Positions 27,397-32,876 of a DNA stretch of 32,876 nucleotides are shown in pieces (position 1 is the stretch's first letter; each line of letters opens with the position of its first letter). Below the pieces are notes generated by a model. It ran no database searches. It worked only from the letters and a program-made list of their open reading frames with translations, and was not told the DNA's origin. Both the position numbers and the translations under genes were made by a program. Origin of the DNA: Egibacter sp. (GTDB lineage: Bacteria; Actinomycetota; Nitriliruptoria; Euzebyales; Egibacteraceae); assembly GCA_003553795.1 (NCBI GenBank), contig PWFH01000193.1, positions 1-32,876 on the forward strand, in the 5' to 3' direction.

Positions 27397-27520
27397 TGTC
27401 CGGCCCTCGTCAAGCCGAGCCCTCGTCGGCGCCCGGCCCTCGACGGGGGCTTCGTCATGGCGGGCCCTCGTCGGCGTCCGGCCCCCATCGGCGTCCGGCC
27501 CTCGTCGGCGCCTCATCGGG
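27397..27520. repeat. Imperfect 17-bp tandem repeats
   Basis: Units like CGTCCGGCCCTCGTCGG recur; the two clearest are 27475-27491 and 27492-27508. GGGGCTTCGTCATG occurs twice (27385 and 27446), so the tail of the csp terminator is part of the repeated material. Confidence 0.65.
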
Positions 27521-27714
27521 CCACCGGGTCCGTCGACCGGCGCGTCCGGCGCCTCGCTCCTCCTCCGGCGGGGGGACCATCCAGCCCTGCTCGGGGGACG
27601 TTGGACCCCCTGTGAGAGCGCCGGCTGGACTCTTGCGCACACCGCCGTCATGCGCATCCTAGGGGCGCAGGGCGTAGCCCGGCGTGCCGTCCCGGGGTGA
27701 GGAGGAGCCCGATC

Positions 27715-28380: not shown

Positions 28381-29295
28381 ATGGCCTCTGCTCGCACGGT
28401 ACGCGCCGAGCCGGCGCGACTCGACCGCGTCGCCGCCGACTGTGCGCTGCCGCTCGCGCGCCTGCGCACCGCCGTGGAGGGCTACCGCGGCGACCTCGCC
28501 GGCTACCGCGCCGGCGACCCCTGCCTGGCCCCGCCGCCGGACCGCGGGGCCGACCTCGAGGAGGCGGCGGCAGGGCTCGAGCGCAGCGTCACGGGGCTCG
28601 TCGAGGCCGCCGAGGCGTTTGCCCGCGCCGAGTCGGGTCTGCCGCCCGCGGGCGCCGGACCCCCGGGCGGAGCCGCCGAGCGGGTCGTCGCAGGAGCCGA
28701 GCTGGGGGTGGGAGGACTCGACGTCGCGAGCCAACTGACCGCTGCGCGGCTCACCGAGGATCATGCCGGACCGACCTGGCGCCGCCGCGACGGCATGGCC
28801 ACCAGCGACCACGGCCGACGCAGCGCCGCCGCCGCGAGCCGCGCCCTGCCCTGGGCGGCGCGGGCAACCGGCACCGGCACCCTGCTCCTGCCCGGCATCG
28901 AGCAGGCCGCACGGGACGCCCAGGACCCGACGCTGAGCGGCGGCGTGCGGACCGCGCGCGCCGGCGCGGCGGTCACCCTCGAGGGCGGGCTCGGCCTCGC
29001 CGGCGGCGCGGCAGGCGCGAAGCTCGGGGTGGCCGGCACGGCGAAGGCCGGCGCGGCGCTCGGCTCGGTCGTGCCCGGTCTCGGCACCGTCGTCGGCGGC
29101 ATCGTCGGCGCAGCGCTCGGCGGCATCGCGCTCGGCGCGGCCGGCCGCAGGCTGCGGGAGTCCGGCAGCGGCCTCGTCGACGCGACTGGCCGGCGGCTCG
29201 AACGGGCGTCGCCGCCGCGGGGCTCGGCGTCGGTCCGCCGGGACGACGAGGCGGCGCCGGCGCGGGCCCGCCGGCGCGGGGGCCGGCGGGGCTGA
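28381..29295 (+). CDS. Ala/Gly-rich protein with helical N-terminus and glycine zipper
   Basis: A 304-residue protein of unknown function. Residues 1-90 are helical and resemble, in length and pattern only, WXG100/ESX-type secreted helical hairpins (RLDRVAADCALPLARLRTAVEGY, LEEAAAGLERSVTGLVEAAEAFARAESGL). The middle (about 155-260) is nearly all Ala, Gly, Val and Leu, ending in a strong glycine zipper (GSVVPGLGTVVGGIVGAALGG) able to enter a membrane. The last 40 residues are Arg-rich. Similar zippers are seen in secreted effector and polymorphic-toxin proteins, but no toxin domain or secretion gene is visible, so this is only a hint. It appears to be translated from a leaderless mRNA. Confidence 0.65.
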   Translation: MASARTVRAEPARLDRVAADCALPLARLRTAVEGYRGDLAGYRAGDPCLAPPPDRGADLEEAAAGLERSVTGLVEAAEAFARAESGLPPAGAGPPGGAAERVVAGAELGVGGLDVASQLTAARLTEDHAGPTWRRRDGMATSDHGRRSAAAASRALPWAARATGTGTLLLPGIEQAARDAQDPTLSGGVRTARAGAAVTLEGGLGLAGGAAGAKLGVAGTAKAGAALGSVVPGLGTVVGGIVGAALGGIALGAAGRRLRESGSGLVDATGRRLERASPPRGSASVRRDDEAAPARARRRGGRRG

Positions 29296-29301
29296 GCGCC
29301 C

Positions 29302-30642
29302 TCAGGCGTCCTCGTCGGGCAGGTGCCACGTCGTGGCGTCACGCCCATCGCGGATCTCGACGCCGAGCGCGGTGAGCCGGTCGCGCAACCGGTCGGCCTC
29401 GTCGTAGCGACCGGCGGCGCGCGCCTCGGTGCGCACGGCGAGGAGGAGCTCGAGGTAGGGGCCGAGGACCTCGCGCGGATCGCGGGCCCCCTCGCGGGCG
29501 AGCTCACCGAGTTCGACGACCATCGCCCGCAAGGCCCGGCGGGCGCGGTCGGCGTCGTCGCTCTCGAGCATGTCGGTGGCCCAGGCGGCGATGGCCCCTT
29601 CGAGCTCGAGGATCGCGGTGACGCAGCCGTCGACCTCCGACGCGGCGAGCGCCCGGTCGAACGCCGCCCGGGCTGCCTCGGCCTCCGCGCGCAACGACAG
29701 CTGCGCCGCCGGACCAGCGTCGGGCTCGTGCCCGCTCCCCGCCCGGTCGTCTCGCACCTCATCCTGCGCGTCGGGCACGTCCGGCGCCGGCTCGGGCGCG
29801 GGACCGGCCCGGCGGCGCGCTGCCGCGAGCGCCGGCCCTGCCGCCCCGTCGTCGCGGCCGGCGAGCAGCGCCGCGAGGTCGTCGACGCCGACCTCCTGCC
29901 CGGCGGCGAAGGCATGTTGGAGGCCCCGGCGCCGGGCGGTGACGGTCCCGGCGCCGCGCACCCGCGCGACGCCGGCGTCGAGGTCAATGACCAGGGCGGT
30001 GTGCTCGTCGACGCCGAGCACGCCGATCTCGTCTGGCAGGGTCGACTCGAGGCGGGTCAGCCGCGTCTCCCCGAGGTAGCAGTAGCGGGTGTCGTGGGTG
30101 CCGCCCTCGGCGTTGTCGAAGTGCGGGACGACCGCAGCGCGGATGCCGGTGAGGGGGCCGAGGAGGTCGAGACCCTCGACCCATGCCGGCTCGAGCCCGG
30201 CCTTGTAGATCTCGTAGACCGGCACGGCGTGGGTGCCGACGGTGACCGCTGCGGCGCTGCCGGCGACGACCGCGCCGCCGCGCTCGGCGACCGCGGCGAG
30301 CGCGTCGGGCACCGGCGTGCCGAGCCATTGGCGCAGGGCGTAGGTCGGACTGCCGGGCCCCGCGAAGGCCCAGCGCGCCCGCTCGAGCAGGGCGAGGGCG
30401 GCCTCCCGCTCGGCGACGGGCGCGTCGGCCCGGCGCCACCGGGCGACCTCGAGCTCGCGACCCACGGTCTGGGAGAAGTACGCGCGGGTGCGGGCGGTGA
30501 GGTCGTCGACGTTCATCTGGAAGGCGAAGGGGGTGTCGAGCAGCGCCGCCGGGCCGGGGCCGACGGCCTCGAAGACCTCCCGGTGGGTGCGCACCATCGG
30601 CGGGGCGGTCTCCCCCGAGCCCATGATGACGAACAGGCTCAC
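29302..30642 (-). CDS. S51 peptidase-like domain fused to a CysRS C-terminal-like domain
   Basis: A 446-residue two-domain protein. Residues 1-265 resemble peptidase S51/class I glutamine amidotransferase-like proteins: MGSGETAPPMVRTHRE at the start and a nucleophile elbow VVAGSAAAVTVG with Ser129. After a disordered Ala/Pro/Asp linker (266-320), residues 321-446 look like the C-terminal part of cysteinyl-tRNA synthetase: a helical DALR-like bundle, then ELLLAVRTEARAAGRYDEADRLRDRLTALGVEIRDGRDATTW. No synthetase catalytic domain is present, so it cannot charge tRNA alone. The GTG at 30642 overlaps the upstream hydrolase stop by four bases (GTGA) and has GAGGAG before it, so the two genes form an operon. 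Function unknown. Confidence 0.8.
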   Translation of the reverse strand: MSLFVIMGSGETAPPMVRTHREVFEAVGPGPAALLDTPFAFQMNVDDLTARTRAYFSQTVGRELEVARWRRADAPVAEREAALALLERARWAFAGPGSPTYALRQWLGTPVPDALAAVAERGGAVVAGSAAAVTVGTHAVPVYEIYKAGLEPAWVEGLDLLGPLTGIRAAVVPHFDNAEGGTHDTRYCYLGETRLTRLESTLPDEIGVLGVDEHTALVIDLDAGVARVRGAGTVTARRRGLQHAFAAGQEVGVDDLAALLAGRDDGAAGPALAAARRRAGPAPEPAPDVPDAQDEVRDDRAGSGHEPDAGPAAQLSLRAEAEAARAAFDRALAASEVDGCVTAILELEGAIAAWATDMLESDDADRARRALRAMVVELGELAREGARDPREVLGPYLELLLAVRTEARAAGRYDEADRLRDRLTALGVEIRDGRDATTWHLPDEDA

Positions 30643-31562
30643 GGCCGCTCCTCGAGGCGGGCCGCGAGCCGCGTGAGGTCGCCGGCGACGGCCTCGGGCT
30701 GCTCGGCGTGCAGGTCGTGGTGACCGCCCGGGTACCACGACGTCGCGACGTCGGGAAGACCCTCGATCGCACGGCCCACCGCCGGGGGGACCGCCGCCGC
30801 GTCGGCCCCGACGACGAGCAGCAGAGCGGGAACCTCGATCGCCCCGAAGCGCGTCGCGGGATCGATGGCGTGCAGCGAGTCGAGGATGGACCGGTGGGCG
30901 CGGCGGTCGAGGCGGGGTCGGGCGAGGCCGTCGCGCTCGACGTAGCAGGCGAGCAGCCCCGCGATCGACGCCTCGGGCCAGCCGGCGTGGCGCGCGCGCA
31001 GCGCCGCGGCGAGCTCGTCAAGACTGCGGTCGCCGAGACGCGGTGGGGCGAGGTCGGCCCAACAGGCCTCGGCATCGGGGTAGGCGGCGGCGAGGTGGAT
31101 CCATCCTCCGTCGACGAGCGCGACGGCGGCCGGCCCTCCGTGGCGCGCGGCGAGCTCCACGACGACGTTGCCGCCCCAAGACTGCCCGACGACGACGGGC
31201 GCGCGCTCGCCGATGAGCTCCTCGGCCTCGAGCAGCGCGGCGAGGTCAGCGGCGGCGGTCGGCGTGTCGTGGCCGACACCGGGATCCGCCGAGCGGCCGT
31301 GACCACGCAGGTCGACGGCGAGCACCTCGTGGCCGTCGGCGGCGAGCCGCGCGGCGACCCCGTCCCACAGCTGCGCGGATGAGGCGAGACCGTGGACGAG
31401 CAGGAAGGGGCGGCGCTCGCCGGCGTGGTGGCGCAGCGCGAGCGGCACGCCGCCGTGCCCCGCCGCGAAGCGGGTCGTCGGCTCGGCGACGGGCCGCGCG
31501 GCGGACGAGACGGCCGCCGGCGCACTCACCGGGGTGGCGGGACGATCGTGGTGGGCTCGCAT
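30639..31562 (-). CDS. Alpha/beta hydrolase
   Basis: A 307-residue soluble alpha/beta hydrolase. Seen: oxyanion strand FLLVHGLASSAQLWD, the loop VDLRGHGRSADPG, nucleophile elbow VVGQSWGGN with Ser between Gln and Trp, and the C-terminal YPGGHHDLHAEQPEAV with the catalytic His. The Trp in the elbow (GQSWGG) is common in esterase and meta-cleavage-type members; substrate unknown. The N-terminal 30 residues are low-complexity, so the true start may lie downstream of the ATG at 31562; the ribosome site there is weak. It is first in an operon with the S51/CysRS-tail fusion, which starts within its stop codon. Confidence 0.82.
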   Translation of the reverse strand: MRAHHDRPATPVSAPAAVSSAARPVAEPTTRFAAGHGGVPLALRHHAGERRPFLLVHGLASSAQLWDGVAARLAADGHEVLAVDLRGHGRSADPGVGHDTPTAAADLAALLEAEELIGERAPVVVGQSWGGNVVVELAARHGGPAAVALVDGGWIHLAAAYPDAEACWADLAPPRLGDRSLDELAAALRARHAGWPEASIAGLLACYVERDGLARPRLDRRAHRSILDSLHAIDPATRFGAIEVPALLLVVGADAAAVPPAVGRAIEGLPDVATSWYPGGHHDLHAEQPEAVAGDLTRLAARLEERP

Positions 31563-31680: not shown

Positions 31681-32526
31681 GTGCTCGACGACATCCTCGC
31701 GTGGCTGCGCTGCCCGCACTGCCACGACCCCCTCACCCGTGACGCCGGGACCCTCGGCTGTGCGCAGGGCCACCGCTTCGACCTCGCGCGCCAGGGCTAC
31801 GTCTCGCTGCGGCAGGGACGCTCCCGCAACCCCGGGGACACCACGGCGATGGTCCTCGCCCGCGAGCGCGCCCTCACCGCAGGCCATCTCGCGGTCGTGA
31901 CCCGCGCGGTCACCGACACGGCGGCCGCCTGGCTCGGCGACGGTCCGCCGGGAGCGGTCGTCGACCTCGGCGCAGGCACCGGCCACTATCTTGCGAGCGT
32001 GCTCACCGCCTGCCCCGATCGCGTCGGCGTCGCACTCGAGCTCGCGCCCGCAGCGCTGCGGCGCGCCGCACGCGCCCACCCCCGCCTCGGCGCGGTGGGC
32101 TGCGACGTCTGGGAGCCGCTGCCCCTCGTCGACGACGCCGCCGCGGTCCTCCTCAACGTCTTCGCCCCCCGCAACCCCGCCGAGATGCACCGGGTGTGCC
32201 ACCCCGAAGGCATCGCCATCGTCGTCACGCCCACGCCGGCGCACCTCGCCGAGCTCGTCGCACCGCTCGGTCTGCTCTCGGTCGACCCCGCCAAGCAGCC
32301 GCGGCTCCACAGCGCCCTCGAGCCGCGCTTCACCCTGCTTGAGCGGCGCGAGATCACCGCCCCGCTGCGGCTCGACCGCGCCGCGGCGCACGCGATCGCC
32401 GCGATGGGCCCGAGCGCGCACCACGTCGACGACGCGACCCTGGCCGACCGCCTCGCGGCATGTCCCGAGCCGATCGAGGCGACCGCCGCCGTCGAGGTAC
32501 GGGTCCTCCGGCCCCTCGCGCGCTAG
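31681..32526 (+). CDS. RlmA/TlrB-family 23S rRNA (guanine-N1) methyltransferase
   Basis: A 281-residue SAM-dependent methyltransferase with the RlmA layout. The N-terminal zinc knuckle uses Cys11, Cys14, Cys27 and His31 (RCPHC, CAQGH), followed by the family line RFDLARQGYVSLRQG. The SAM-binding motif is VVDLGAGTGHYL (about residues 79-90); LLNVFAPRNPAEMHRV is the next core strand and loop. The family methylates N1 of G745 or G748 in helix 35 of 23S rRNA; the G748 form (TlrB) gives tylosin resistance in streptomycetes. Which G is used here cannot be told. GTG is chosen for its AAGGAGG site and TAGGCT box; longer frames upstream cross the promoter. Confidence 0.88.
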   Translation: MLDDILAWLRCPHCHDPLTRDAGTLGCAQGHRFDLARQGYVSLRQGRSRNPGDTTAMVLARERALTAGHLAVVTRAVTDTAAAWLGDGPPGAVVDLGAGTGHYLASVLTACPDRVGVALELAPAALRRAARAHPRLGAVGCDVWEPLPLVDDAAAVLLNVFAPRNPAEMHRVCHPEGIAIVVTPTPAHLAELVAPLGLLSVDPAKQPRLHSALEPRFTLLERREITAPLRLDRAAAHAIAAMGPSAHHVDDATLADRLAACPEPIEATAAVEVRVLRPLAR

Positions 32527-32657
32527 GACCGTGGGGCTGACATTGGGTCGCGGCGGGGGGGTCGGTGCCGCGGCGACGGGCCCTCACATCCCCTCGCGCC
32601 TGTCTCGCCCGCGCGCCTTGACCTCGCCGTGGTCTTGCTATCGGATGGCGTGGGTGT

Positions 32658-32682
32658 GCGCCCCGGGGGTCCTCCGGGGCGC
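32658..32682. terminator. Hairpin between convergent genes
   Basis: GCGCCCCGG (32658-32666) and CCGGGGCGC (32674-32682) form a perfect 9-bp stem with a seven-base loop. It lies between the RlmA-like gene and the convergent partial gene at the window edge and may end both transcripts. No T-tract. Confidence 0.5.
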
Positions 32683-32703
32683 AGCGAGGGTGGATGGGGG
32701 GGT

Positions 32704-32876
32704 CTAGAGGTCGAGGGTGGGCTGCACGGGTGGTGGGGGTTCGTCGTCGGGTGGTTCGGGCGGCGGCGGCTGGTCGGCTGGCCGGCTGGGCGGGTCGCCT
32801 CCCGAGGGTCGGCCTCGGTCGGGCGGGTCGCCTCCGGAGGGTCGGCTTCGGTCGGGCGGGTCGCCTCCGGGGGGGT
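32704..32876 (-). CDS. 3' end of a gene with an 11-residue repeat tail (partial)
   Basis: An open minus-strand frame runs from the window edge to a TAG at 32706-32704 and gives about 57 residues of C-terminus. It holds repeats of the form GGDPPDRxRPS, two full and part of a third, then a Pro-rich tail ending EPPPPVQPTLDL. Pro/Asp/Arg-rich disordered tails are common on membrane or wall proteins and regulators; the main domain is outside the window. The coding call rests on the repeat having a 33-base period that keeps frame and on the clean stop before a hairpin. Confidence 0.5.
   Translation of the reverse strand, partial: PPGGDPPDRSRPSGGDPPDRGRPSGGDPPSRPADQPPPPEPPDDEPPPPVQPTLDL
32788..32876. 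repeat. 33-bp tandem repeat
   Basis: Units start at 32788, 32821 and 32854 (cut by the window end), almost identical, each starting GGGCGGGTCGCCTCC. The period of 33 matches the 11-residue repeat in the minus-strand partial gene. Confidence 0.8.

Follow-up and report, generated by a model that had tools for sequence, protein, structure and literature searches.

A putative S51-like serine hydrolase fused to the anticodon-binding domain of cysteinyl-tRNA synthetase: a candidate tRNA-guided bacterial enzyme

The window analyzed here, the whole stretch of 32,876 nucleotides from contig PWFH01000193.1 of Egibacter sp., carries on its minus strand a gene encoding a fusion protein in which an S51 (cyanophycinase/PepE-like) hydrolase domain is followed by a probably disordered linker, a helical region, and CysS_C, the anticodon-binding domain of cysteinyl-tRNA synthetase (CysRS) (Table 1). 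The reading frame opens with a GTG start codon at 30642 and ends with a stop at 29302. A mechanical ORF list gives a longer frame with an upstream extension to 30738; however, alignment comparison shows that the same methionine begins the homologs, at MSLFVIMGSGET, and the start was therefore placed at 30642. The gene for an alpha/beta hydrolase lies upstream, its stop at 30639, and the two frames share 4 bp, an overlap typical of translational coupling; the coupling of these genes proposed in a preliminary description of the locus is thus real. The contig belongs to a draft genome of 3.13 Mb in 231 contigs, and the CysRS of this genome is encoded on a different contig.

Table 1. Coordinates of the fusion gene, the regions of its product, and the upstream gene in the window
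Feature	Position	Strand	Basis or remark
Fusion gene, S51-like hydrolase + CysRS anticodon-binding domain	29302..30642	-	446 aa; profiles, AlphaFold model, 104-sequence alignment
S51 (cyanophycinase/PepE-like) domain, residues 1-260	29863..30642	-	catalytic candidates S129, H174, E213; structure matches, motif alignment
Low-confidence linker, residues 267-316, probably disordered	29695..29844	-	pLDDT 39-74; <50 at 285-306
Helices (residues 317-384) in the position that the helical DALR_2 domain has in CysRS	29491..29694	-	profile and structure searches
CysS_C anticodon-binding domain, residues 396-441	29320..29457	-	Pfam, family profile, profile comparison, alignments
Alpha/beta hydrolase upstream of the fusion	30639..31562	-	nucleophile in GQSWGG; start codon approximate

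That annotation or assembly had joined two neighboring genes might be suspected of a genome in 231 pieces, but the stop-free fused frame recurs in more than 100 independent contigs, among them single-contig genomes and complete plasmids, and we rejected this explanation as having virtually no chance of being correct. The fusion of an S51-like hydrolase with a CysRS tail is real. We aligned 104 homologs from Actinomycetota, Dormibacterota, and Chloroflexota metagenome-assembled genomes (MAGs), and an AlphaFold model computed with this alignment as input had a mean pLDDT of 89.4 and a pTM of 0.82.

Homology of the N-terminal domain to S51 enzymes is clear in both profile and structure. The family profile matches the sequence of 6nqc with an E-value of 1.8e-9, and the AlphaFold model aligns to the same structure with a Z-score of 25.6 over 228 residues (rmsd 2.6), to the pseudo-CphB 7uqv with Z 24.8, to cyanophycinase 3en0 with Z 24.1, and to PepE 1fy2 with Z 20.5. 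In the model, the S51 (glutamine-amidotransferase-like) fold is predicted to extend across the whole domain, as had been proposed from the sequence. The Pfam Peptidase_S51 profile (PF03575) matches 36 of the 104 members, the window protein not among them, and the NCBIfam cyanophycinase model TIGR02069 matches the window protein weakly (1.6e-5), its 24.5 bits lying below the cut-off of 126.6 bits, so that the protein is not a cyanophycinase equivalog. The GSAAA sequence picked out earlier as an elbow corresponds to the nucleophile elbow of S51 enzymes. All 106 sequences have Ser129 and His174, and 104 have Glu213, the two exceptions, both from Chloroflexota MAGs, having Gly. The Ser-His-Glu order, aligned to 6nqc, is that of S51 enzymes, and we consider it quite probable that the S51 domain is catalytically active. 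The near-invariant R186 may be the equivalent of the arginine of PepE that binds the substrate carboxylate.

The fusion proteins share with the S51 enzymes CphB, PepE, and MccG the fold (Z 20-26), the triad order, and the motifs xSAxA, PHF, and DExT. They differ from them in the added C-terminal anticodon-binding domain, in a GPGSPTY loop where S51 enzymes have a GG[D/N] loop, in the long conserved insert NAEGGxHDTRFCYLGE and the motif VPVYEIYKVG, and in the substitutions DEHT for DEDT and SAAA for the usual SAGA. These family-specific changes suggest a substrate unlike those of the characterized S51 enzymes.

The strong match to CysRS is confined to the last ~46 residues. Pfam CysS_C (PF23493) matches residues 399-439 with an E-value of 2.3e-7 and 31.3 bits, above the curated cut-off of 23, and is found in 99 of 104 family members. 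The CysRS of the source genome matches residues 310-442 of the fusion protein (E 1.1e-7, 41% identity); when profiles of the 46-residue domain and of CysRS tails from related genomes were compared, the probability was 99.6% with an E-value of 4e-24 and 53% identity. The family profile also finds solved CysRS structures, including the 1li5/1u0b sequence of the E. coli CysRS-tRNA-Cys complex, at 3e-8. No class I synthetase catalytic core was found in the fusion protein, in agreement with the preliminary description: profile matches are limited to CysS_C and the tail of CysRS models. The protein thus has in common with bacterial CysRS the 46-residue anticodon-binding domain and its invariant residues, but lacks the catalytic core, is joined to a hydrolase, and has a very divergent helical region.

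Profile and structure searches align the helices at residues 317-384 collinearly with CysRS. When the helical region alone was compared with CysRS, there was no significant match (hhalign probability 1.6%, P 0.03); in a model of the tail alone, generic helical bundles matched as well as CysRS did, and structure searches with the helical region returned generic bundles only, although the helices may still be related to CysRS. The earlier proposal that the C-terminal 125 residues are CysRS-like therefore holds strongly for the last ~46 residues but not, on sequence alone, for the helices. Their "DALR-type" label fits by position and is plausible without being established; this part of the protein is strongly diverged and not clearly derived from CysRS.

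Aligned through the family profile, the last 40 residues of the fusion protein and of E. coli CysRS correspond without gaps, so that R404, R408, Y413, and D417 are equivalent to R423, R427, W432, and D436 of the E. coli enzyme, and R420, D432, and W439 to R439, D451, and W458. In the 1u0b structure, R427 and D436 hydrogen-bond G34 of tRNA-Cys (PMC12684709); R423 reaches G34 through a water network, and W432 stacks on it (PMC12684709). All of R404, R408, D417, R420, D432, and W439 are present in 104 of 104 full-length homologs, and position 413 is F, Y, or W in each of them. In a 67-sequence alignment of the tail, in which pairwise identity to the window tail drops to 32%, no column other than these six is invariant. 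In three of four additional members from plasmid records (Streptomycetaceae, Streptosporangiales), the six residues and the aromatic are all retained; in the fourth they are retained up to the end of its alignment. The divergent members L040-L043, 354-384 aa long, have shorter tails, yet the CysS_C segment is retained. Absence of a CysRS match or of the anticodon-binding residues had been named beforehand as evidence against the proposed fusion; instead, the G34-contact residues are invariant, which favors binding of tRNA-Cys over a simple scaffold. Such a pattern would be expected under selection for anticodon binding, though it falls short of proving that binding occurs. With its profile score above the cut-off and its anticodon-contact residues kept, the tail is by sequence a CysS_C domain, and it probably binds tRNA. 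The earlier idea that the tail may steer a peptidase or amidase to tRNA-Cys has partial support in these data.

G34 is found not only in tRNA-Cys but also in tRNA-Asp, -Asn, -Phe, -Tyr, -His, and others. Specificity for tRNA-Cys would consequently hinge on putative roles of the other invariant residues.

How widespread the fusion is was surveyed in a sample of 296 genomes of the phylum and in a wider scan. The scan was ranked by full-length score and is thus biased toward tail-bearing members, a bias from which the phylum sample is free. A strong S51 match was found in 21 of the 296 genomes, with a CysS_C tail in the same frame in 21 of 21. In the class to which the window belongs, 13 of 66 genomes have the fusion, which is an accessory gene of patchy distribution. 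The wider scan gave at least 560 related stretches, the best 80 of which come from Kineosporia, Micromonosporaceae, Acidimicrobiia, Nanopelagicales, Geodermatophilaceae, Dormibacterota, and Chloroflexota MAGs. Members were also found on Streptomyces plasmids, and those public plasmid records in which the gene is annotated call it "hypothetical protein". Three database titles deserve comment: "Bifidobacterium breve" (L077) and "Mycobacterium sp." (L113) appear to be wrong, the fusions being near-identical or very close to those of Microthrix/Acidimicrobiia, and L094 ("Mycobacterium sp.") has an isolated position in the fusion tree. An anti-phage or viral origin was dropped, as PADLOC and PHROGs gave no match.

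A paralog of CysRS resembling the mycothiol enzyme MshC is encoded in 17 of the 21 fusion-bearing genomes of the phylum sample. A mycothiol link was nevertheless rejected: the paralog is near-constant within families, is absent from one family that has the fusion, and is encoded in many fusion-free genomes; we treat it as phylogenetic background. The MshC-related paralog is present in the genome of the window (G000:C71:15221-16315) and in about 40 other genomes of the phylum, with scores of about 340-446 bits against a cut-off of 485 bits over approximately positions 15-385, and may be a divergent MshC or another ligase.

Among the 101 loci with enough sequence, 55 have a homologous alpha/beta hydrolase gene directly upstream on the same strand, at a spacing of -4 to +34 bp. 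Mapped on the fusion tree, this neighbor occurs in most large clades and requires 15 changes, 8 of them forced by well-supported branches, a distribution that fits an old operon with losses. The catalytic-motif residues S107 and H261 of the hydrolase (P0002 numbering) are at least 95% conserved. Other neighbors, which were named by eye and not by profile, are lineage-specific: a metal ABC transporter, Gfo/Idh-type oxidoreductases, and QueG-like, DUF2017-like, DUF164-like, and lycopene-cyclase-like proteins. The conserved neighbors of the fusion include no cysteine-metabolism gene and no inhibitor-synthesis cluster. The QueG-like gene (by eye an epoxyqueuosine reductase, which modifies tRNA position 34) adjoins the fusion upstream in opposite orientation in three Dormibacterota loci (L097, L106, L130). 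In two Streptomycetaceae plasmids (L131, L134), the fusion is near genes for DUF4331, TPR, "nickel transporter", and class F sortase proteins, a neighborhood not seen at the other loci.

A tRNA gene is present no more than 200 nt downstream of the fusion, on the same strand, at 22 of 104 loci, compared with a chance expectation of about 0.2 loci from which shared descent has not been removed. In 21 of the 22 it is tRNA-Glu(UUC) (for example, L108:11355-11518, L095:11281-11583, and L090:11320-11610), often followed by tRNA-Asp(GUC) and tRNA-Phe(GAA); none of the adjoining genes encodes tRNA-Cys. The arrangement occurs in separate clades, including the deep-branching L041, and at L070 the tRNA and the end of the fusion reading frame overlap. 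There is no tRNA gene in the window. Since tRNA-Asp and tRNA-Phe carry G34, the tail may read G34-containing tRNAs more broadly.

Architecture, conservation, predicted fold, and operon are observed features of the family; that the substrate is linked to a tRNA is our inference, and we would put it at somewhat under an even chance. The interpretation we prefer, although we hold it only tentatively, is that the fusion protein is a serine hydrolase docked on tRNA-Cys. The CysS_C domain would bind the anticodon loop at G34, and probably at C35 and A36, as in CysRS, and the S51 domain, tethered through the long flexible linker, would use Ser129, His174, and Glu213 to break a bond in a substrate that tRNA-Cys carries or that arrives together with it. 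The most plausible substrate would be tRNA-Cys with an aberrant acyl or peptidyl group attached, the enzyme acting in trans in quality control, and the co-encoded alpha/beta hydrolase would work in the same pathway. Consistent with docking are the equivalents of the G34 contacts, which lie among the sole invariant columns of the tail, the near-invariant triad on an S51 fold, the retention of CysS_C in L040-L043, the hydrolase upstream in many clades, and the excess of downstream tRNA genes. Against it stand the occurrence of G34 outside tRNA-Cys and the identity of the adjoining tRNAs (Glu, Asp, and Phe). The SAAA elbow is unusual, and the patchy distribution is unlike that of core proofreading. 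Characterized S51 enzymes, moreover, cut Asp-X amides, not aminoacyl esters. CysRS is reported to require no editing against serine (PMC7373986), so that the obvious mischarged substrate is missing; some other adduct may then be the substrate, or a peptidase may be regulated by the tRNA. Were the tail a mere scaffold or dimerization module that had lost RNA binding, with the hydrolase acting independently, a divergent and generic helical region would be expected of the reused structure; but the invariant tail residues occur only at the anticodon-reading site of CysS_C, and divergent members shorten the tail and yet keep that segment. The pattern of invariant residues thus disfavors this explanation, which we regard as improbable.

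If tRNA-Cys were instead a regulatory ligand, the tail would sense its level or charging and switch or localize an S51 dipeptidase, which together with the alpha/beta hydrolase would break down small peptides or thiol conjugates to release amino acids, cysteine perhaps among them. Known S51 enzymes such as PepE and cyanophycinase are dipeptidases or exopeptidases (PMC9239234), the partner is also hydrolase- or peptidase-like, and the reported lack of a need for CysRS to edit against serine and the accessory, patchy distribution are in keeping with such a role; but the anticodon is far from the acylated CCA end, which leaves no evident direct sensor of charging, and cysteine-metabolism genes are missing from the conserved neighbors. 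We consider regulation unlikely, though it deserves more weight than the scaffold. Rather less probable still is detoxification, in which the S51 domain would destroy an aminoacyl-nucleotide-like inhibitor of CysRS and the tail would concentrate the enzyme near CysRS or tRNA-Cys. The precedent is MccG, an S51 enzyme that destroys processed microcin C, an aminoacyl-nucleotide inhibitor of AspRS (PMC9239234), which shows that synthetase-related chemistry is within reach of S51 enzymes. The accessory spread and the members on Streptomyces plasmids would fit, but no inhibitor-synthesis cluster is a conserved neighbor and our literature search gave no CysRS-directed inhibitor of this kind. MccG, in addition, has Asp as the triad acid, and the available text of PMC9239234 does not describe it with a tRNA-binding CysS_C tail.

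Should the docked-hydrolase interpretation be correct, the protein would resemble the trans-editing factors YbaK, ProXp-ala, AlaX, and DTD in acting in trans on a particular aminoacyl-tRNA. The available text of PMC7373986 and PMC10164551 describes such factors as selecting mainly through the acceptor stem or synthetase binding, whereas the fusion protein, whose fold is unrelated, would select through the anticodon. No dedicated clearing enzyme for tRNA-Cys was found in the literature, and a search conducted mostly without subscription journals yielded no description of the S51-CysS_C architecture. The architecture adds a new form to the S51 enzymes and, should guidance by tRNA be proven, a new kind of tRNA-selective factor. 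It is conceivable, at somewhat less than even odds in our judgment, that the family is a new class of tRNA-guided hydrolases, S51 enzymes targeted by reading the tRNA-Cys anticodon. Such an anticodon-selected factor built from a peptidase would perform cleavage on, or controlled by, one tRNA species, and a widespread family now labeled hypothetical protein would thereby gain a function. Retention of the anticodon-reading residues of CysRS where the synthetase itself has been discarded suggests that in Actinomycetota tRNA-Cys meets a fate, or is put to a use, that has gone unrecognized.

Other genes surround the hydrolase-fusion pair in the window. A Gly/Ala-rich ORF at 28381-29295 (+) is convergent with the fusion gene and has no Pfam match; its weak likeness to large phage proteins (PHROGs, 4.9e-5) is probably compositional. 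Divergent from the pair, at 31720-32523 (+), is a gene for an RlmA-like rRNA methyltransferase with a zinc ribbon (2.3e-9) and a methyltransferase domain. Positions 32523-32876, at the end of the window, contain low-complexity, repeated ORF text (TRPTEADPPEATRPTEADP...), and a similar repeat is found near 27400-27600.
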